In this document: positions 48,707-62,435 of the stretch, one piece after another
How positions within the stretch are numbered: position 1 is the stretch's first letter
How the letters are laid out: the number at the start of each line of letters is the position of its first letter
Assembly (NCBI GenBank): GCA_027307335.1
Contig: DAHUXD010000036.1
Location: 1-64,000, forward strand
Direction: 5' to 3'
Length of the DNA: 64,000 nucleotides
DNA from: Acidobacteriota bacterium
GTDB lineage: Bacteria > Acidobacteriota > Thermoanaerobaculia > UBA5066 > Gp7-AA6
The notes under the pieces: generated by a model
What the model was told of the DNA's origin: nothing
The model's input: the letters and a program-made list of their open reading frames with translations, nothing else
The model's database searches: none
Position numbers and translations under genes: made by a program

Positions 48707-49105
48707 CTAGGGCCGGCCGGCCCGGGCTTCGACGGCGGCGAGCCAGCGGTCAATCAGGTCCGCATAGGCCGGCAGGCGCCCGAAGATGCGGATCGCAAGG
48801 GCTTCGTTGTACGTGTGGGTCGTGAGGTTCCGATCCGAAACCATTTCGAGCGCCTCCCGCGCGTCCGCTTCCTCGAGGAGACCGACGGCGTGGCTCTGAC
48901 GAACGGCGGAGGACGGAGACGCCGCGTCGATGCCTTCGTGGTCGCGCAGGAAACGCTGCGCCGCTTTCCAGGCCGTCTCGAAGACGTACTCGAATCGCTG
49001 GATCGAGGCGTCGCGAACGAGGGCGGAGGCCGGCTCGCGGAGAGCCTCCCGGAGGGTCGCGAGCGCCCGGCGCGCCAGTGCCAGCCGGCGCCTCAGCTCG
49101 TCCAC
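48707..49105 (-). CDS. HEPN toxin of HEPN-MNT system (HI0074 family)
   Basis: 132 aa helical HEPN protein. The motif R92-x4-H97-x-Y99 (RNLTTHTY) is exactly the RX4HXY pattern of the type VII HEPN toxins, an RNase whose Tyr is adenylylated by the MNT partner. The MNT gene lies upstream and overlaps it by 13 bp. Whether it is toxic in this host is not known. Confidence 0.88.
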   Translation of the reverse strand: MDELRRRLALARRALATLREALREPASALVRDASIQRFEYVFETAWKAAQRFLRDHEGIDAASPSSAVRQSHAVGLLEEADAREALEMVSDRNLTTHTYNEALAIRIFGRLPAYADLIDRWLAAVEARAGRP

Positions 49106-49401
49106 GGAATTCCTTCCCGCTCGACTCTGGCCCGGAGGCCGGGATCGGCGTCGAGAAGGTTGACGAGGTCCACCGTGGCCAGAACGCGACTCGACTCGAG
49201 GTCTTCGCGAATCCCGGCCAGCAGCCCCGCCGGCAGCGGCTCGAGGGGAAGGATCGCGACGTCGATGTCCGAGCCACGGCGGGCCTGACCGGAGGAGCGG
49301 GACCCGAAGAGCCAGACCTTCGCGCGCCGCGTACCGAGCCCCCCGAGCACGATCCGGCGGACCTCTTCGACGTCCGGCGCCTCCGATCGGGAGAAGGACA
49401 T
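49093..49401 (-). CDS. MNT nucleotidyltransferase antitoxin (HI0073 family)
   Basis: 102 aa minimal nucleotidyltransferase. GSX10DXD is visible: G33 S34 then D45 and D47 (GSDIDVAI), the metal-binding catalytic motif. In characterised pairs MNT adds AMP units to the HEPN toxin Tyr to inactivate it. First gene of the two, with a perfect TATAAT box 5 nt before its ATG. Confidence 0.9.
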   Translation of the reverse strand: MSFSRSEAPDVEEVRRIVLGGLGTRRAKVWLFGSRSSGQARRGSDIDVAILPLEPLPAGLLAGIREDLESSRVLATVDLVNLLDADPGLRARVEREGIPWTS

Positions 49402-49531: not shown

Positions 49532-50341
49532 CTAGATGCTCCCCTCGTCCACGATCCCCCTCGACACGGCGCGCAGGCCCTCCGCGACTCCCCTCGATCC
49601 CGCGACCACGTTGCCGCGCTCGAGGTAGCCCTTCCCGCCCGCGAAGTCGGTGAGCTCGCCGCCCGCCTCCTCGATCAGGAGCGCGCCCGCGGCGATGTCC
49701 CACGGCGCGAGGCGGAACTCGAAGAAGCCGTCGAAGACGCCGGCCGCGACGTACGCGAGGTCGAGCGCCGCCGAGCCGGCGCGCCGGATCGCGCGGGCGT
49801 GCACGAAGACGGCCTTGAACAGGGCCAGGTACGCGTCGATCTTGTGGCGGTTGCGGAACGGGAATCCCGTCGCGATGAACGCCCCGTCGAGCGTCGAGCG
49901 GCCGCTGACCGAGAGCCGCGTCCCGTTGCGCCACGCGCCGCCGCCCTTCTCCGCCGTGTACATCTCGTCGCGCAGAGGGTCCCACACGACGGCCGCGACG
50001 AGCTCCTCGCGCTCCCGGGCCGCGATCGAGACGCACCAGAAGGGGAAGCCCGACACGAAGTTCGACGTGCCGTCGAGCGGGTCGATGATCCAGACGCGCG
50101 CGCCCTCGCCGCCCTTCCGCGCGCCGCCCTCCTCGGCGAGGAACGCGTCGTCCGGGAAGCGCTCGCGGATCGCCGCGATGATCCGTTCCTCGCTCTCGCG
50201 GTCCGCGTGGGTGACGAAGTCGTTCTTCGTCTTCTCCTCGACGGAGCCGTGCGGGAGGTTGCGCCAGTTGGCGGTGAGGACCTCGCCGCCGGCCCGCGCG
50301 GCGGCGACGGCCGCGTCGACGAGGGAACCGAGAGAGCTCAT
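49532..50341 (-). CDS. suhB: Inositol-1-monophosphatase family protein
   Basis: 269 aa. Li-sensitive phosphatase fold: EEKTKNDFVTHADRESE, LAEEGG and IDPLDGTSNFVSGFPFW form the metal site, and the second motif is LAPWDIAAGALLIEEAGG. Acts on inositol phosphate or related sugar phosphates; SuhB also has RNA-related roles in some bacteria. ATGA overlap with the upstream GH113-like gene. Confidence 0.92.
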   Translation of the reverse strand: MSSLGSLVDAAVAAARAGGEVLTANWRNLPHGSVEEKTKNDFVTHADRESEERIIAAIRERFPDDAFLAEEGGARKGGEGARVWIIDPLDGTSNFVSGFPFWCVSIAAREREELVAAVVWDPLRDEMYTAEKGGGAWRNGTRLSVSGRSTLDGAFIATGFPFRNRHKIDAYLALFKAVFVHARAIRRAGSAALDLAYVAAGVFDGFFEFRLAPWDIAAGALLIEEAGGELTDFAGGKGYLERGNVVAGSRGVAEGLRAVSRGIVDEGSI

Positions 50342-52509
50342 CGGGACTCCGACGGCGCCGGCAGGCCCCGGAAGCCGTCCGCGATCGCCCTCTCGGCCGG
50401 CGTGCCGAGGACGTTGAAGCCGCGCTCCCCGGCGCGCGCCGGCTTGCCGTCGGAGAACGCCTTCCACCAGTAGACGCCCTTCCACCACGGCTGGCCGGAA
50501 AGGGCCCGGAAGACGGCCGCGACCGCGCGGCCCGAGTCCTCGCCGCCGGCCGGCCGCCGGACGTCCTCGGCGTGCGGCGCGATCCAGGGTGCCCGCTCCC
50601 ACGGGTACCCGATCTCGGTGAAAATGACGGGCTTCTTGGCGCGCGCCGCCAGCTCCGCGACCGGCTGCGCCGCCTCGCGCACCGCCTGGTCGAGCGCCGG
50701 GTCCTTCACCTTCTCCGCCTTCGACAGCGGATCGTAGAAGTCGACGCCGATCGCGTCCAGCCCCTCCCAGAACGGGACGCGCGCGGCGTTCGACGATCCG
50801 TTCGCCGCGTAGAGGAGCGGCGCCCCCGTGGCGAGGCGCGCCGCGGCGATCACGCCGCGCCAGTTCCGCTCGCGGACCTCGGCGCGCGTCAGCTCCGTCC
50901 CGACGCAGAAGAGCGCCGCCCCGGCCGCCTCGGCGACGACCGCGGCGTGGACGACGTAGACCCGATACGCGTCGAACCAGCGGTTCCAGGATGCGTCGTC
51001 CGCCATCGCGACGTCGCCGACGGAGGCGCCGCCGCCGACCCAGAGCTGCGGGGCGACCAGCGCGGTCATGCCGAGCGCCCGCGCGTCGAGGGCCGCCCGA
51101 AGGATCGCCTCGTCCGTCTCGCCGAGCGCCGTCCGGTGGACGAAGAGGACCGCCTCGCCGGACGGATCCCGGACCAGCGCGTACGGCAGCACCGAGACGG
51201 AGTTGGCGCCGAGGTCCTTCAGCCGCTTCAGCGTCGCGGCCGACGCCGGCGTGGCGTAGCCCTCCTCGAGCGTGTTCGTCATCGCGTACGAGATGCCCCG
51301 CAGGAACCCCTCCGGCAGCGGGCGGCGCGGCGGCGGCGCGACCGCCTGGCGCCATGCGGCATCGCGCCAGCGCGAGAGCTTCGTCGCGAGGACGCCCTCC
51401 TTGTCGGTGAGCGCCTTCGCGACCGCGGGCTCGCCCTCGAGGCGCGCGCCCGCGTCGAGCCAGGCCGCGCCGGCCCCCACGGTCAGGATCGGCGAGGCGT
51501 CCTCGGAACCGCGGACGACGTCCTCGAGCGACGGGTCGACGCCGGCGGCGTGCGTGAACGCGGCGAAGCTCTTGACGTCCCTCCCCCACCACTTCCCGAC
51601 GCGGCGCGCGCCCTCGGCGAGGAGCAGCACGCGGCGATCGAGCAGCGCCGGGTTCGCCGCCGCGAGGCCGGCGGCCGCGAGTGCCGACTCGACGAGGTCG
51701 GGCTCGGCGGGCGTCGAGGCGTCGACCTCGACGACGATGCGTCCGTCGTCGGCGAGGATGTCGGCCGGCCGCGAGGAGCCCGTGTACAGCGCCTTCGCGG
51801 CGGCGTCGGGGAACACGCGCACGAGGAAGCCGGCCTTGCCGGCATCCTTCGCCGCCGCCTTCTCCCAGCGCGCGACCGCGGGCGCCTCCGTCTCGCGGAA
51901 CTCCCACTCGACCGCGCCGCGCTTCTCCCGCCGGAGCGATTTGTAGAACGCCTCCTTCGCGGCGATGCGGTCGCGGTCGCTCGCGCGATCGATCTCGAGG
52001 CTCCGGTCGCGAACGGCGAAGCGGCCCTCCTTGACGAGCGCGCCCGAGACGACGCGGTAGCCGGCGGGGCGATCGGGGGACTCGACGAGCGCCGACGCCG
52101 TCAGATCCAGAACCGCCTTCTCGGACCCGCCGAGGACGAAGGCGTCCGACGGCTTCGACGGGTCGACGAGCAGGATCGCGTCGGAGGGCGCCGCGTACGT
52201 CCGCCCGTCGAACGCGAAGCCGCCGCGTTCGAAGGAGATCGGGAAGCGGGACAGGAGCGGCTTCAGCTTCTCGGACGGCGGAACGAGCGACAGGTGAGCG
52301 ACGTCGAAGCCGCGCGGCACGGACGAGCCCTCCGGCGCCTCCTGGAGCTCGACGCCGTGTCCCTTCGCGCGCTCGGTCAGGCGCTCGAGCGCCGGCACGG
52401 CCGTGATGCCCTCGGAGAGGCGGAGCGCGATCTTGCGGGGCTCGGGCTCCTTGGCGGCGAGAGCCAGGACGGCCGTGCAGGCGAGGGAGAGGACTCGACG
52501 AAGCCTCAT
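50338..52509 (-). CDS. Secreted glycoside hydrolase-like (GH113-type) protein with large N-terminal region
   Basis: 723 aa. Signal peptide (residues 1-19), then about 390 residues of unassigned sequence including LVDPSKPSDAFVLGG and an internal extracellular solute-binding-like feel, then a TIM-barrel part from about residue 400: ISYAMTNTLEEGYATPAS, LGANSVSVLPYALVRD, LFCVGTEL and FTEIGYPWERAPW (likely acid/base and nucleophile Glu), as in GH113 beta-mannanase-like proteins. Ends with WWKGVYWWKAFSD. Probably acts on a mannan or other polymer at the cell surface. Substrate is inference. Confidence 0.7.
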   Translation of the reverse strand: MRLRRVLSLACTAVLALAAKEPEPRKIALRLSEGITAVPALERLTERAKGHGVELQEAPEGSSVPRGFDVAHLSLVPPSEKLKPLLSRFPISFERGGFAFDGRTYAAPSDAILLVDPSKPSDAFVLGGSEKAVLDLTASALVESPDRPAGYRVVSGALVKEGRFAVRDRSLEIDRASDRDRIAAKEAFYKSLRREKRGAVEWEFRETEAPAVARWEKAAAKDAGKAGFLVRVFPDAAAKALYTGSSRPADILADDGRIVVEVDASTPAEPDLVESALAAAGLAAANPALLDRRVLLLAEGARRVGKWWGRDVKSFAAFTHAAGVDPSLEDVVRGSEDASPILTVGAGAAWLDAGARLEGEPAVAKALTDKEGVLATKLSRWRDAAWRQAVAPPPRRPLPEGFLRGISYAMTNTLEEGYATPASAATLKRLKDLGANSVSVLPYALVRDPSGEAVLFVHRTALGETDEAILRAALDARALGMTALVAPQLWVGGGASVGDVAMADDASWNRWFDAYRVYVVHAAVVAEAAGAALFCVGTELTRAEVRERNWRGVIAAARLATGAPLLYAANGSSNAARVPFWEGLDAIGVDFYDPLSKAEKVKDPALDQAVREAAQPVAELAARAKKPVIFTEIGYPWERAPWIAPHAEDVRRPAGGEDSGRAVAAVFRALSGQPWWKGVYWWKAFSDGKPARAGERGFNVLGTPAERAIADGFRGLPAPSESR

Positions 52510-54877: not shown

Positions 54878-55435
54878 CTATTGCGGCCGCTCGAGGATCC
54901 AGACCTCGTCCGAGCCGTCGGTCTCCTGGAAGAGGACCTGGATCGTCTCCCGGTTCGCGGTCGGCACGCTCTTGCCGACGTAGTTGGCCTCGATCGGGAA
55001 TTCGCGATGGCCGCGGTCGATTAAAACCGCGAGCCGGATCGCGCGCGGCCGGCCGAGGTCGATGACGCCGTCGAGCGCCGCGCGGATCGTCCGCCCGGTG
55101 TAGAGGACGTCGTCGCAGAGGAGCACGGTGCGGCCGTTCAAGTCGAAGTCGATCTCGGTCTTCTTCAGGAGGGGCTGCGGCGCGACCGTCGAGAGGTCGT
55201 CGCGGTAGAGCGTGATGTCGAGCGTGCCGACCGGGAAGTGCCCCCCCGGGACGAGGTCGGCGAGGCGGGTGGCGAGGCGGTTCGCGAGCGGGACGCCGCG
55301 CGTCCGGATCCCGATGAGGGCGAGGCCGGACAGGTCCTTCTGGCGTTCCGCGATCTCGTGGGCCATGCGGTCGACCATCCGGCGGATGCGGTCCGCGTCG
55401 AGAATGCGCGCCTTGCGGATCAGGTCCTCGCTCAA
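54878..55435 (-). CDS. pyrR: Bifunctional pyrimidine operon regulator / uracil phosphoribosyltransferase PyrR
   Basis: 185 aa. PRPP-binding loop [20 protein letters not shown]-terminal region with [18 protein letters not shown]-terminal [17 protein letters not shown] all specific for PyrR. Usually binds the 5' leader of pyr mRNA in response to UMP to favour termination and has uracil phosphoribosyltransferase activity. Start is TTG at 55435, only 9 nt after the -10, so no leader is available for that mode of action. Confidence 0.95.
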
Positions 55436-55473: not shown

Positions 55474-55541
55474 GGAAACGGCCGAAACCGGGCGCGGGCC
55501 CGGCGATTCGGCGTTAAAATCGGGGCAAAGAACGGAGTCCC

Positions 55542-57443
55542 ATGGTCATTTACAACGCCGCCACGCGCGAGCTGACCGCGAAGATCGTGTACTACGGCCC
55601 GGGTCTCTGCGGGAAGACCACGAACCTGAAGGTCCTGCACGACCGGCTCGAGCCCGGCACCGCCGGCAAGCTCCTGAACCTTCAGACGCAGACCGACCGC
55701 ACGATCTACTTCGACCTGCTGCCGGTCGAGCTCGGCGACATCAAGGGCTACAAGATCCGCTTCCAGCTCGCGACGGTTCCCGGTCAGACCGCGTTCAACG
55801 AGACGCGCCGCGTGGTGCTCAAGGGCGTCGACGGCGTCGTGTTCGTGGCCGACTCGCAGTGGACCATGCTCCCGAAGAACCTCGAGAGCTGGCAGAACCT
55901 GAAGGACAACCTCAAGTCGAACGACATCTCGTTCGAGAAGATCCCGATCGTCATCCAGTACAACAAGCGCGACCTCGGGGACATCCTCGCGGTCGACGCC
56001 ATGCAGGAGGCGCTGGGGCTCTCCTCGTACCCGTTCGTCGAGGCCGTCGCCTCGGCCGGCCGCGGCGTGACCGAGACGTTCAAGCTGATCTCGAAGCTCA
56101 CGTTCGTCGACCTGCTCCGCCGGCTCCAGGGCAAGCGGGCCGAGGAGGCGGCGGCCGCCGGCGCCGTCGAGCCGCCGAGCGAGGGGCGCCCGGACGACCT
56201 GCAGACGTGGAAGGACTCGCTCCTGAATCGCGAGTCGCAGTCGACGATCCAGATCCCGCGCGCGCCCGCGCGCCCGCTGTCGCTGGTGCCGCCGGTCCAC
56301 GACGAGGCGCCGTTCGACACGACCGAGCTCGGCCGCGGCGTCGACGACGAGGACGAGAGCCCCTACGCCGTTCCGGAACCGCCGGGCCTCGAGCCCGGGC
56401 CGCCGATGCCGCTCGCGCCGAGTCCGTCGGCGACGATCCAGATGGACATCATCGGCATGGAGGAGATCGGCAGCACGATCGACCCGCCGGAGGAGCTGAC
56501 GCCCGCCGACGAGATCGACGAAATCGAGGCGATCGAGCCCGGGGAGATCGCGGCGCCCGCCCCGCCCCACCGTGCCGAGGCGGCCTTCGTGCCGAGCGAG
56601 GCCGTCAGCGACGAGCGCCTCGAGCTCCTCGAGCAGCGCCTGCGCGAGGCCGCGGGCCGCACCGCCGGCGAGCGCGAGGCGGTCGAACGGCTCGGCGCGA
56701 GCGTCTCGGCGGTCCAGGAACGCACCGAGGCGGCGCTCGAGCACATCGCCGCCCTCGCCGATCGCCTGAACGCGCTCGAGAACGGCGTCGGCGGCGTCCA
56801 CGAGGCGCTCGCGGCGCTCCAGCAGCGCCTCGGTCCGCTCGAGGCCGGCGCCGGCCGCCACGACGAGATGCAGCAGGCGATCCAGGCCTTCGAGCACGGG
56901 CTCCGGGGCGTCGAGGAGCGGATGGGCGCCGAGGCGACGCGCCAGCGCAAGGACGCGGACGACCTCGGAATGGCCCTCCACGCCCTCGGCGAGCGGTTCC
57001 AGAACGACGAGCGCTTCCGCGCGCTGTCCTCTCTGCACGAGCGCTTCCAGGCGATGGAGCAGCAGGTCGCGGTCCTCCTCTCGCAGACGGGTTCGCACGA
57101 GGACCAGATGAGCTCGGTGCGCTGGCTCGCCGAGACGATCCCTCAGCTCGAGGCGCGGGTCACGGCGCTTTCCGCGCACGGAGAACGGCTCGGCGAGATC
57201 GAGGGGCGGCTCGAGAACACGGTCCGGCAGCATCGCGAGCTCGAGTCCACCTTCGAGGAGAAGACGCAGCAGGGCCGCCGCGAGGCCGAGGACATCCGGT
57301 CCCAGATCGCGCCGCTCCTCGAGGAGCGCGTGCGCCGGCACGAGTCCGACGCGCTGCTCTTCTCCGAGATGGAGCGCCTGCGCGAGTCGCTGTCGGAGTC
57401 GCTCCACGACCTCGCGGACCGGCTGCGCAACACCGTTCGCTAA
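55542..57443 (+). CDS. MglA-like small GTPase fused to a long coiled-coil tail
   Basis: 633 aa. Residues 1-200 are an MglA/Arf-type GTPase: G1 GPGLCGKTT (19-27), G3 TVPGQ (78-82) and G4 NKRD (141-144). A Pro/Glu-rich disordered linker spans about 200-350, and residues about 355-633 form a long heptad-rich coiled coil with repeated LE.R and ALEHIAAL-type units. MglA controls cell polarity and motility and is normally about 195 aa on its own. The extension may give self-assembly or anchoring. No MglB (roadblock) gene is adjacent. TAAAAT at 55515 and GGAG precede the ATG. Confidence 0.85.
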   Translation: MVIYNAATRELTAKIVYYGPGLCGKTTNLKVLHDRLEPGTAGKLLNLQTQTDRTIYFDLLPVELGDIKGYKIRFQLATVPGQTAFNETRRVVLKGVDGVVFVADSQWTMLPKNLESWQNLKDNLKSNDISFEKIPIVIQYNKRDLGDILAVDAMQEALGLSSYPFVEAVASAGRGVTETFKLISKLTFVDLLRRLQGKRAEEAAAAGAVEPPSEGRPDDLQTWKDSLLNRESQSTIQIPRAPARPLSLVPPVHDEAPFDTTELGRGVDDEDESPYAVPEPPGLEPGPPMPLAPSPSATIQMDIIGMEEIGSTIDPPEELTPADEIDEIEAIEPGEIAAPAPPHRAEAAFVPSEAVSDERLELLEQRLREAAGRTAGEREAVERLGASVSAVQERTEAALEHIAALADRLNALENGVGGVHEALAALQQRLGPLEAGAGRHDEMQQAIQAFEHGLRGVEERMGAEATRQRKDADDLGMALHALGERFQNDERFRALSSLHERFQAMEQQVAVLLSQTGSHEDQMSSVRWLAETIPQLEARVTALSAHGERLGEIEGRLENTVRQHRELESTFEEKTQQGRREAEDIRSQIAPLLEERVRRHESDALLFSEMERLRESLSESLHDLADRLRNTVR

Positions 57444-57502: not shown

Positions 57503-58399
57503 CTAGGTCTTCCCTCCCCTCAGCCGCGACAGGAACCTCTCGTCGTTGCGCCAGTCCGGCTGCACCCGGACGGTCAGCTCCAGATAGAAGCGCCGCCCGA
57601 GCTCGCGCTCGAGCTCCTCGCGAGCGGCCTGGCCGATCGACCGGATCATCGCGCCGCCCTTCCCGACCACGATCCCCTTCTGGCCCTCGCGCTCGACGAC
57701 GATCGTCGCGGTCACGACCGTGATGTCCGGGTCGGCGCCCGGGCGCACCGACTCGATCACGACGGCGTGGGCGAACGGGATCTCGTCCCGCGTGCGCTCG
57801 AGGAGCTTCTCGCGGATCACCTCGCCGATCCACTCGGTCTCGGGGGTGGCGGTCAGGAAGTCGGCCGGATAGGCCGCGTCGCCCTCCGGAAGCCGGCCCG
57901 CGAGCACCGCGAACAGCCGGTCGACGTTCTCCCCCGTCCTCGCCGAGACCGGCACGAGGTCGGCGAAGCCGCGGTACACGGGATCCCCGCCGAGCGCGGC
58001 GAGGATGGGCAGGAGCCGGTCCTTCTTCAAGAGGTCGATCTTGTTGACGGCGAGCACGACCGGCGTGCCCGCGTTGCGGCAGAGGCCGGCGACGGCCGCG
58101 TCCCCCGCGCCGCGCTCCTCGGCGGCGTCGACGACGAAGAGGATGCCGTCGGCGCCGGACAGCGCGTCGGTCGCCTCGCGCACCATGGCCGAGTTCATCC
58201 GGTACTGCGGGCGGTGGATCCCGGGCGTGTCCACGAGCGCGATCTCGGCGTCGGGACGCCGGGCCACGCCGAGAATGCGCGACCGCGTCGTCTGCGGCTT
58301 GTCGGAGACGATCGCCACCTTCTCGCCGACGAGGGCGTTGACGAGCGTGGACTTGCCGGCGTTGGGCCGGCCGACGACCGCGATCTCGCCGACCCTCAT
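57503..58399 (-). CDS. era: GTPase Era
   Basis: 298 aa. G1 GRPNAGKST, G2/G3 with KPQTTRSR and DTPGIHRP, G4 NKID, and a C-terminal KH domain (ILVVEREGQKGIVVGKGGAMIRSIG-like core). Binds 16S rRNA 3' end and helps 30S maturation. ATG at 58399. Member of the phoH-yqfF-ybeY-CorC-era cluster. Ends at the REP-like hairpin. Confidence 0.96.
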   Translation of the reverse strand: MRVGEIAVVGRPNAGKSTLVNALVGEKVAIVSDKPQTTRSRILGVARRPDAEIALVDTPGIHRPQYRMNSAMVREATDALSGADGILFVVDAAEERGAGDAAVAGLCRNAGTPVVLAVNKIDLLKKDRLLPILAALGGDPVYRGFADLVPVSARTGENVDRLFAVLAGRLPEGDAAYPADFLTATPETEWIGEVIREKLLERTRDEIPFAHAVVIESVRPGADPDITVVTATIVVEREGQKGIVVGKGGAMIRSIGQAAREELERELGRRFYLELTVRVQPDWRNDERFLSRLRGGKT

Positions 58400-59674: not shown

Positions 59675-60132
59675 CGCCGAACGCCCCCCGGACGGCCCGC
59701 GTCCGCAATCCCCAGGCGCCGGCGCACCCGCGCCTCGAGCGCGTCCATCTCGCCGTCGTCGGTCTCGTGGTCGTAACCCATCAGGTGCAGCAGCCCGTGG
59801 ACGAGGAGCCGGTCGATCTCCCGGGCGGCCGGCTCGCGCCGCCGCCGCGCCTCGCGCGCCGCGTACGGCACCGAGATGACGATGTCGCCGAGGAAGCCGT
59901 TCGCGGCACCCCCGGCGGGAAACGCCAGCACGTCCGTCGAGCGGTCCTTGCCGCGCCAGCGGCGGTTGAGCGTCTTCATCCGCGCGTCCGAGCAGAACAG
60001 CACGGACACACCGGGGGTCAGGCTTAAGCCTGACCCCGCTTCCCGCGCCGCGCGCGCCGCCTTCGAGAGCAGCCGCCGCACCCGCAGGGGGCCCGGGGCC
60101 CCGGCCGCGGTCGCCCGCACGTCGATCTCCAT
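59671..60132 (-). CDS. ybeY: Endoribonuclease YbeY with palindromic repeat in its coding sequence
   Basis: 153 aa. Zinc motif HGLLHLMGYDHETD and the upstream RWRGKDRSTDVLAFP are characteristic. Needed for 16S rRNA 3' end maturation and quality control. Residues 32-40 (AGSGLSLTP) are encoded by a perfect 24-bp palindrome (60014-60037), at the junction between the N-terminal helix and the first strand. ATGA overlap with the 7TM-HD gene upstream. Confidence 0.95.
   Translation of the reverse strand: MEIDVRATAAGAPGPLRVRRLLSKAARAAREAGSGLSLTPGVSVLFCSDARMKTLNRRWRGKDRSTDVLAFPAGGAANGFLGDIVISVPYAAREARRRREPAAREIDRLLVHGLLHLMGYDHETDDGEMDALEARVRRRLGIADAGRPGGVRR
60014..60037. repeat. Perfect 24-bp palindrome inside ybeY
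   Basis: GGGGTCAGGCTT followed by its exact reverse complement, with no spacer. Reads in frame through ybeY. No second copy was noticed in this window. Confidence 0.85.
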
Positions 60133-62435
60133 CAGACCGCCCTCGGCCCCGTGGCGGTGTCGGCGCTCCGGCGGCGGGACCGCTCGCGATTGAAGTCGAA
60201 GCCCGGGTAGTCGATCCGGTGGTGGAAGACCGTGGTGACCGTGCGCTCGAGCGCCTCGACGATCACCGAGAGGTCGCGCATCGTCAGGTCGCACTCGTCG
60301 AACTGCCCGTCCCGGAGGCAGTCGTCGACGATCTGGCGAATCATCGCGCGGATCTTCGCGGGCGTCGGCTCGATGAGCGTCCGCGAGGCCGCCTCGACGG
60401 CGTCCGCGATCATCAGGATGCCGAGGATGCGCGTCGACGGCTTCGGCCCCGGGTAGCGGTACTCGGTCTCCGCGACCTCCTCGCCGGGGGCCGCCTTGCT
60501 GACGGCCTTCTGGAAGAAGTACCGGATCAGCTTCGTCCCGTGGTGCTCGCGGATCGCGGTGACGATCGGCTCGGGGAGCCGGGCGCGCCGGGCCATCTCG
60601 ACGCCCTCCTTCACGTGCGCCGCGATGATGAGCGCGCTCATCGAGGGCTCGAGCCGGTCGTGCCGGTTGTAGCCCTTCGCCTGGTTCTCGATGAAGTAGT
60701 CGGGCATCTTGGTCTTGCCGATGTCGTGGTAGTAGCCCGACACGCGCGCGAGCAGGGAATCGGCGCCGATCGCCTCCGCCGCCGCCTCGGCGAGGTGACC
60801 GAGCATCAGCGAGTGCTGGTACGAGCCCGGCGCCTCGAGCGCGAGCGTGCGGAGAAGCGGCAGGTTCTGGTTCGACAGCTCGAGCAGCCGGATGTCGGTC
60901 ACGACCGAGAAGAGGTGCTCGAACACCGGCAGCATCAGCGCGACCACCATCGAGACGGTCAGGCCGCCGGCGACGCCCGCGAGCGCATCGAAGAGGAAGT
61001 CCCAGCCCCACGGTCCCGCGTTCAGGAAGTGCAGCGCGACGATCGCGACGAGGTTGCCGCTGGCGACGATGCCGCCCATCGCGAGGAGGACGCTGCGCGC
61101 GCCGACGCGCCCCAGCCCGTAGATTCCGGCGAGCGATCCGACCACCGAGAAGAGCGCGAAAGGGAACGACAGGCCCATCAGGACGCCCGCGCCGAGCGAG
61201 AACACGAGCGCGACGAGGAGCGCGGGGCCCATGCCGGCCACGAGGCTCACCACGATCGGCCCGGCCGCGAACGGGATCGCGAAATTGACGGCGCCGGACG
61301 CCCCCTCGAGGCTCGGCGACAGGGCCTGCGCGAGCGCGTAGGTGGCCCGCGTGACGAACGCGAACACGATCCCCGTCGCGAGCACCGATCCGAAGACGAC
61401 GCCCGGCGAGCGCTCCCGCCGGCGGCGCCGCTGCCGGCGCGCGTCGAGCCAGAACGCCGCGGCGGCGAGGACCTGGAGAATCAGGATCCCCGTCACCTTC
61501 ACCCAGGAGGATGGGTCCGAGGCGGACGCGCGGATCGCGGCGATCCACTGCGCGGTGCGCGGCGTGATCTCGTCGCCCCGGCGCACGATGACCTTGCCGC
61601 GCGGCAGCCGCGTGAACACGCTCTCGACGCCGCGCGCGGCGTCGGCACGGCGCTCGGCGGTCAGGGGCGCGTCGTAGACCAGGTTCGGACGCAGCGTCGC
61701 GGCGAGGAACGCGGCGACCTCGGCGCGCTCGCGCGGCGTGAACGGGCTGTCGGCGAGCCGCGATGCGATCGCCGAGCGCGCCTCGTTGCCGAACTCGATC
61801 GCCCCGCTCTCGCGGCGGCGGCTCTCGCGGCCGGACGACGTGTCGCGCGCCGTGATGCCGCGGCTCCTCGCCTCCGGCGCGAGGTCCCGATGGTCGATCA
61901 CGCCGCCCCGGTAGAGATCGAGCCCGATGACCGCGAACTGGTCCTCGAGCCGGGCCGAAAAGCCCTGTCGGGCGAGCGCGGCCAGGGCCTCGTCTCCGAT
62001 CGGCAGCGCGAACGCGTCGGCGAGCTCGGGCGTGACACGCCCTTTCGGGCGGGTGTGAGCGAAGGCCGTGCGCGCCTTCTCGAAGGACTCGCGCAGCTGC
62101 GACTCGAAGCGCGCGGGCGCCCCCGCGTCGTAGTCGTAGATCGGCAGGACCTCGGCCGAAACCTCGGCACGGCGCCGGGCCGTCGCGTCGGGGTCCGGGA
62201 CGATCAGGTCCCGCGGTGCGACGATGTCCCGCGGCGCGACCATGCCCGGGACCGCGGGGCGGTCGCGGAAGGACAGCGTCGGCGAGAAGCAGAGCGTCGT
62301 CGCGATGACGTACGCGATGGCCCAGAGCAGCGGCCGGACGCGCACCGCGGGCCGTTCGCCGTCTTCGCGCGAGGGCGGCGGCGGCGTCTTCTGAAAATCG
62401 ATCGTCGTGCGCCCGGGGGGCGCGCCCGTGGACAT
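60132..62435 (-). CDS. 7TM-HD family protein (YqfF/PgpH-like)
   Basis: 767 aa. One helix at about residue 35, a large extracytoplasmic 7TMR-HDED domain (about 60-320), seven membrane helices (about 320-520), and a cytoplasmic HD domain with YYHDIGKTKMPDYFIENQ and REHHGT. PgpH-type proteins hydrolyse c-di-AMP. ATG at 62435, 10 bp after phoH. The gene overlaps ybeY by four bases. No c-di-AMP synthase is in this window. Confidence 0.9.
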   Translation of the reverse strand: MSTGAPPGRTTIDFQKTPPPPSREDGERPAVRVRPLLWAIAYVIATTLCFSPTLSFRDRPAVPGMVAPRDIVAPRDLIVPDPDATARRRAEVSAEVLPIYDYDAGAPARFESQLRESFEKARTAFAHTRPKGRVTPELADAFALPIGDEALAALARQGFSARLEDQFAVIGLDLYRGGVIDHRDLAPEARSRGITARDTSSGRESRRRESGAIEFGNEARSAIASRLADSPFTPRERAEVAAFLAATLRPNLVYDAPLTAERRADAARGVESVFTRLPRGKVIVRRGDEITPRTAQWIAAIRASASDPSSWVKVTGILILQVLAAAAFWLDARRQRRRRRERSPGVVFGSVLATGIVFAFVTRATYALAQALSPSLEGASGAVNFAIPFAAGPIVVSLVAGMGPALLVALVFSLGAGVLMGLSFPFALFSVVGSLAGIYGLGRVGARSVLLAMGGIVASGNLVAIVALHFLNAGPWGWDFLFDALAGVAGGLTVSMVVALMLPVFEHLFSVVTDIRLLELSNQNLPLLRTLALEAPGSYQHSLMLGHLAEAAAEAIGADSLLARVSGYYHDIGKTKMPDYFIENQAKGYNRHDRLEPSMSALIIAAHVKEGVEMARRARLPEPIVTAIREHHGTKLIRYFFQKAVSKAAPGEEVAETEYRYPGPKPSTRILGILMIADAVEAASRTLIEPTPAKIRAMIRQIVDDCLRDGQFDECDLTMRDLSVIVEALERTVTTVFHHRIDYPGFDFNRERSRRRSADTATGPRAV

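Follow-up and report, generated by a model that had tools for sequence, protein, structure and literature searches.

A coiled-coil-tailed architecture of the MglA GTPase in Acidobacteriota

The window, which is the whole 64,000-nt stretch of DNA analysed here, carries a 633-aa open reading frame (ORF) on its forward strand (55542..57443) that begins with ATG behind a probable Shine-Dalgarno sequence (GGAG, 55534..55537, +). We use 'MglA-CC' as a working label, coined in this analysis, for this 633-aa coiled-coil-tailed MglA. The GC content of the gene at codon positions 1, 2 and 3 is 0.73, 0.43 and 0.96 overall, and GC3 stays between 0.95 and 0.97 in each part, so that the G domain, linker and tail all display the same codon-position pattern. 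The constancy of this pattern along the gene argues that the tail is translated in the same frame as the G domain, and that the long ORFs in other frames over mglA-CC are GC artefacts. The ORF call, codon-position GC and synteny together identify 55542..57443 as a real ORF. Orthologs with the same layout and synteny rule out an assembly artefact as the origin of the fusion.

mglA-CC stands alone, with a divergent gene for a PyrR-like phosphoribosyltransferase upstream (54878..55435, −; PF00156) and a convergent gene for an Era-like GTPase with a KH domain downstream (57503..58399, −; Pfam scan). The position of pyrR is kept in the same-family loci L117 and L118. Most relatives of the order have an era-hlyC-ybeY-phoH run beyond mglA-CC: era, accompanied by all or part of the hlyC, ybeY and phoH set, is found in both same-family genomes and at eight f2 loci, and two f3 loci have different neighbours. 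The synteny shared between the own family (f1) and f2 identifies these mglA-CC genes as orthologs. The neighbours (pyrimidine genes, era, ybeY and phoH) carry no hint of motility. A 7TM-HD phosphohydrolase gene lies between phoH and ybeY (60132-62435, −) and occupies the same place in L117 and L118; it was not detected in the f2 loci. Elsewhere in the window are adjoining genes for a nucleotidyltransferase (Polbeta/NTP_transf_2) and an NTase substrate-binding/HepT-like protein, a pair of the MNT-HEPN type (48707-49401, −), and a gene adjoining the pyrimidine genes for a 723-aa protein with a C-terminal GH113-like domain (50338-52509, −). In the f8 relatives L128-L135, mglA-CC is followed in conserved order by genes for a probable lipoprotein without a Pfam match and a PLP-dependent enzyme.

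Residues 1-196 of MglA-CC (55542..56129, +) form an MglA-family G domain, as indicated by alignments, AlphaFold2 fold comparison and the match to solved MglA. The solved structures 5ymx and 6h17 match residues 3-192 with an E-value of 3e-59, which bears out the description of the protein as an MglA-type GTPase in an earlier note on this DNA. The P-loop GPGLCGKTTN (GxxxxGKT) and the NKRD element (NKxD) are present, and their columns are invariant in both family alignments. In the G3 element, TVPGQ, T78 replaces Asp and Q82 is the catalytic residue; R53 corresponds to the intrinsic Arg finger. R53, T54, D58, T78 and Q82 are invariant in 118/118 MglAs examined. MglA-CC also keeps L64, I67, K181 and K185, the pocket that receives the C-terminal helix of MglB, and across its subfamily K185 is conserved in 29/29 members and K181 in 24/29, with aliphatic residues at positions 64 and 67. 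We modelled MglA-CC with AlphaFold2 as a single chain from a 27-sequence alignment. The pLDDT of the modelled G domain is mostly 78-97, and its closest solved folds are MglA-GTPγS structures (6izw and 6h17; TM 0.92-0.94 by target length), the closest being Myxococcus xanthus MglA with GTPγS bound. Judged by its sequence, this region is an intact MglA G domain that keeps all catalytic residues.

The G domain is followed by an acidic, Pro-rich linker (aa 197-355; 56130..56606, +) with 17% Pro, 22% Asp+Glu and a net charge of −25. The linker is predicted to be disordered, its pLDDT being mostly below 50 over residues ~205-355. A short helix is predicted at aa 220-228 (56199..56225, +) within the motif DDLQTWKDSLLN, which was delineated by alignment, AlphaFold2 and motif counts; it is common to the same-family L006 (DDLLSWKDSLLN) and the f3 member L008 (ENLSAWKSSIV) and occurs in 4/29 subfamily members and in none of the shuffled sequences. 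Motif counts against shuffles also mark the linker motif VHDEAPFDTTELGR (aa 252-265; 56295..56336, +). PF[EADP], located ~30-130 residues past the G domain, occurs in 29/29 subfamily linkers against a shuffled mean of ~7.5 (maximum 14), the 29 rows being related. In other long MglAs it does not rise above the shuffled level, and the Nitrospirota coiled-coil rows contain none. MglA-CC thus bears both marks of the subfamily, a C-terminal heptad-periodic helix and PF[EADP] in the linker. Motif counts further identified the acidic-aliphatic motif DEIDEIE (aa 323-329; 56508..56528, +). Motifs of the DEIDEIE/DEIEEL type are found in 17/29 members against a shuffled mean of 1.5 (maximum 6); the DEIEEL type occurs in f8, f10 and f5 relatives, and EEVSLEQLL is also common to f8 and f10. 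A DEIDEIE-like motif is absent from the same-family L006 and L007, which rules it out as ancestral and suggests that the copy in the window may be due to chance.

The remaining residues, 356-633 (56607..57440, +), were assigned as a coiled-coil tail from periodicity, heptad score, AlphaFold2 and alignment. AlphaFold2 places five helices in the tail (357-433, 439-487, 490-513, 519-599 and 606-632) at a pLDDT of mostly 60-77. The Fourier power is 3.77 at a period of 3.46 residues, a value reached in 0/500 shuffles (mean of shuffled maxima 0.78). Heptad windows, detected with a home-made score (not COILS) that is fit for ranking but not calibrated, cover 224/278 tail residues against a shuffled mean of 46.7 (maximum 173; reached in 0/200 shuffles). 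Within f1, conservation of the tail is highest in the last ~60 residues. In Pfam and NCBIfam scans, generic coiled-coil models scored below their curated cut-offs, and the tail could not be assigned to a named family (BLOC1_2, Dynamitin, SpiroCoCo, SMC or Rad50). The tail is thus predicted, at moderate model confidence, to be a helical, heptad-periodic coiled coil. The layout proposed in the earlier note, a linker and a coiled-coil tail of about 280 residues, therefore holds.

The genome (4.37 Mb, 96.5% complete) encodes three MglAs: the 633-aa MglA-CC on contig C39, a 455-aa protein on contig C14 and a canonical 194-aa protein on contig C7. A single Robl_LC7 gene was found in this genome; it encodes an MglB that matches M. 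xanthus MglB (E 2e-54), and it adjoins the canonical mglA on C7. No roadblock gene is present in the 64,000-nt window, in agreement with the earlier note, which saw none nearby, and MglA-CC itself contains no Robl_LC7 domain. MglAs outnumber roadblock genes in this genome (3 versus 1), in the 61 genomes searched (186 versus 102) and in f8 (4-6 versus 1-2). Hence either several MglAs share one MglB or part of them work without it, and service in trans or another form of regulation must be common among the relatives. The residues on which MglB acts (R53, T54, D58 and Q82) and the helix pocket are retained in MglA-CC, which argues that this GTPase is probably not the self-contained switch that the earlier note had envisaged. 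The C14 protein (L002/L036; G domain at C14:50296-50883) has a linker rich in Pro, followed by a small C-terminal module that matches no Pfam family and is beta-rich in the modelled relative L068. Its gene lies ~8 kb from pilT (C14:59281), so that this paralog, not MglA-CC, is nearest to pilT. pilT is likewise found within ~6-10 kb of C14-clade MglA genes in G013, G019 and G040 and within ~8-15 kb of genes for long MglAs in G003, G005 and G011.

MglA is present in 51/61 genomes searched, comprising the own genome and its relatives. Extracted tails of the members of the order that were examined contain a C-terminal heptad helix, the longest of them reaching ~250 residues. The sequence of a coiled coil diverges fast, and identity among the tails of orthologs is low; in the subfamily the length of the coiled coil ranges from ~30 (L017, L019) to ~280 residues, with ~40-60 in f8 and f10. 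Among the matches listed by a name search, coiled-coil MglAs occur in Acidobacteriota (Thermoanaerobaculia, gp7 and Holophagales), in Nitrospirota and, once, in a Rokubacteria bin, and other types of tail in further groups, among them Zixibacteria, Latescibacteria and Aminicenantes. The majority of the MglA matches listed for Acidobacteriota are long open frames. In a G-domain tree of 118 rows, the coiled-coil MglAs of Acidobacteriota form a clade of 29 (support 99/94) that includes the G domain of MglA-CC; three of its rows (L017, L019 and L139) fall below the tail threshold yet have a shorter heptad helix. The Nitrospirota coiled-coil rows form a clade of their own (100/98), the C14-type long MglAs are in a clade separate from MglA-CC, and the short canonical MglAs cluster except for one long-branch row. 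The coiled-coil label requires 5 changes on this tree, compared with a mean of 32.4 for shuffled labels; the coiled-coil architecture follows the phylogeny of the G domain. The coiled-coil tail likely has a single origin within Acidobacteriota, as deduced from the G-domain tree rather than from tail homology, and the claim is limited to this phylum because the Nitrospirota clade joins the Acidobacteriota clade weakly (78/81). MglA-CC is thus not a one-off but belongs to an old and widespread subfamily of Acidobacteriota. Several Nitrospirota coiled-coil MglAs end in basic-aromatic, KRRSWFRF-like tips that may bind membranes. The long MglAs L077, L087 and L067, from Zixibacteria and Deferrisomatales, end in KKKPGFFKRLFGIQ or KKGLLSRMFG-type tips, which are candidate amphipathic membrane anchors.

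In a set of 197 genomes from the phylum, an MglA, whatever its type, occurs in 144/175 genomes with PilT above the family cut-off versus 1/22 without (Fisher p 4e-13, a value that overstates independence because the genomes are related). The 22 PilT-less genomes and the overlap were counted by hand from two listings, and 32 genomes were scored MglA-negative by their absence from the positive list. Among the close relatives, the ten genomes without MglA are the same ten that lack PilT, and all belong to one genus. These observations support a pilus setting for MglAs at large but do not single out MglA-CC. In Nitrospirota relatives, a gene for a GAF-GGDEF diguanylate cyclase (assigned in three cases by Pfam and in the others by similarity) is located directly upstream of the coiled-coil mglA. 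The GAF-GGDEF-mglA order occurs in L045, L047, L054, L057, L076 and L091, with a large conserved gene, secA-like by eye, before GAF-GGDEF. In two f2 relatives, genes for PilZ-domain proteins (L121:5578-5973 and L127:9333-9713) are convergent with the coiled-coil mglA; no Pfam match was obtained for similar small ORFs of L122 and L136. The GGDEF and PilZ neighbours hint at a link between coiled-coil MglAs and c-di-GMP.

The reading we favour, to which we give an even chance, is that MglA-CC is an orphan, GTP-switched MglA paralog that relies on MglB in trans or on another regulator, is assembled or anchored by its coiled coil and has an output linked to type IV pili. The G domain would cycle between GTP and GDP as MglA does, and the single MglB of the genome, or another regulator, would serve it in trans. 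The coiled coil may dimerise or multimerise the protein and anchor the switch at one place in the cell, for instance the pole, and the flexible linker would allow the tethered G domain to reach regulators and partners. In M. xanthus, MglA works with the coiled-coil proteins AglZ and FrzS (PMC11580455, PMC3000849), and the C-terminal coiled coil of FrzS is sufficient for its polar localisation (PMC11580455). MglA-CC may accomplish in one chain what these separate partners do. Given what MglA, AglZ and FrzS do in M. xanthus, MglA-CC is most likely a GTP switch whose own coiled coil provides assembly or anchoring. PilB reaches the leading pole through SgmX, a protein recruited by MglA (PMC11580455); control of type IV pilus-dependent surface behaviour by MglA-CC would be the least certain step.

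The coiled-coil switch may instead organise another envelope process, such as division, secretion or signalling, an alternative that we consider possible but distinctly less probable. It is favoured by the own-family mglA-CC genes, which have no adjacent motility gene, by the probable lipoprotein and PLP enzyme encoded next to mglA-CC in f8, and by the GAF-GGDEF and PilZ neighbours, which point towards c-di-GMP and not towards pili themselves. However, MglA is nearly absent from PilT-less genomes, and the best studied role of MglA is in the polarity of motility machines.

A further alternative is that the linker regulates the switch in cis, a PF/acidic-helix element docking onto the protein's own α5/β2-β3 pocket to tune nucleotide exchange. 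The C-terminal helix of MglB docks on MglA at K181, K185, L64 and I67 and drives nucleotide exchange, and the acidic helix of RomR can substitute for it (PMC6785124). MglB C-termini across several phyla, that of M. xanthus MglB included, are conserved as SPFAEI[TS]D[DE]DIDxLF; a peptide of the SPFAEITDEDIDxLF type is present in L035:4543-5040 and in the MglBs of L078, L093, L097, L099, L100, L113, L115, L141 and L146. Together with the retained pocket and the PF[EADP] in every subfamily linker, this likeness is a lead only. The strict MglB C-terminal core motif is found in 0/29 subfamily linkers, which rules it out as a linker element; the helix modelled in 6izw does not include the PF, DEIDEIE is missing in L006 and L007, the low-confidence AlphaFold2 linker shows no confident docking, and MglB in trans may be all that the pocket binds. 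We therefore regard regulation in cis as unlikely. A bolder version, in which MglA-CC represents a distinct switch class whose linker carries an MglB/RomR-type exchange helix in cis, whose coiled coil assembles a polar polymer and for which MglB is only the reset, is more unlikely still; if it were true, polarity could be set by one gene.

We give little credence to a switch that needs no MglB and whose tail replaces both regulator and effector: the window lacks a roadblock gene and MglAs exceed roadblock genes in most relatives, but MglB is encoded elsewhere in the genome, the MglB-dependent Arg finger and pocket are kept, and Pfam and NCBIfam scans revealed no roadblock or GAP similarity in the tail. 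We find it least credible that the tail is a rapidly drifting extension lacking any specific role. The variable length and low ortholog identity of the tails speak for this, but heptad character persists in almost every member despite great divergence, and also in the separate Nitrospirota clade, and the last ~60 residues are conserved within f1.

Of the Ras-like polarity switches in bacteria, MglA has been studied best, and it is known as a small protein to which separate partners are recruited. If the tail of MglA-CC confers localisation or assembly, as the favoured reading holds, natural fusions of this kind would reveal which of the partner functions cannot be dispensed with, and MglA-CC would offer a simpler system for reconstituting polarity.

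Known MglAs are tail-less proteins of ~195 aa, usually encoded with mglB. MglA-CC resembles the Group 1 MglAs of M. xanthus and Thermus thermophilus in its G fold, R53, T78 and Q82 of the TxPGQ element and the helix-pocket residues, but has 437 additional residues and no mglB nearby. The M. xanthus genome, which also has mglBA, encodes a second MglA-family GTPase, SofG, that acts with type IV pili (PMC4316618). MglA-CC is likewise a second MglA-family GTPase in an mglBA genome, a comparison made by description. We know of no coiled-coil tail in SofG. AglZ and FrzS are similar as coiled-coil proteins that work with MglA at defined cell sites, but they are separate from MglA, and the pseudo-receiver domain of FrzS (PMC11580455) is absent from MglA-CC, in which a Pfam scan detected no (pseudo-)receiver, LRR or COR domain. 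The 455-aa C14 protein shares the MglA G domain, a long Pro-rich linker and a C-terminal module, which in the C14 type is small and mostly beta (from the model of L068), whereas that of MglA-CC is a coiled coil. Roco proteins and Group 1 Rup systems are comparable in that a small-GTPase domain forms part of a long protein or has a coiled-coil gene next to it; the G domain of MglA-CC, however, matches MglA, and LRR and COR domains are missing. A 2014 survey of Ras-like prokaryotic GTPases counted MglA members of ≤240 aa (PMC4316618), which places the tailed, 633-aa architecture outside that census, and a literature search judged by title and abstract returned no paper on tailed MglAs. As 633 aa exceeds single-domain size, we do not class MglA-CC with the canonical MglAs but treat it as a new architecture built on an MglA G domain. 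The mechanism is what we infer; the known kind is the MglA switch, and what is new here is the coiled-coil-tailed architecture, its anatomy and its distribution in Acidobacteriota.
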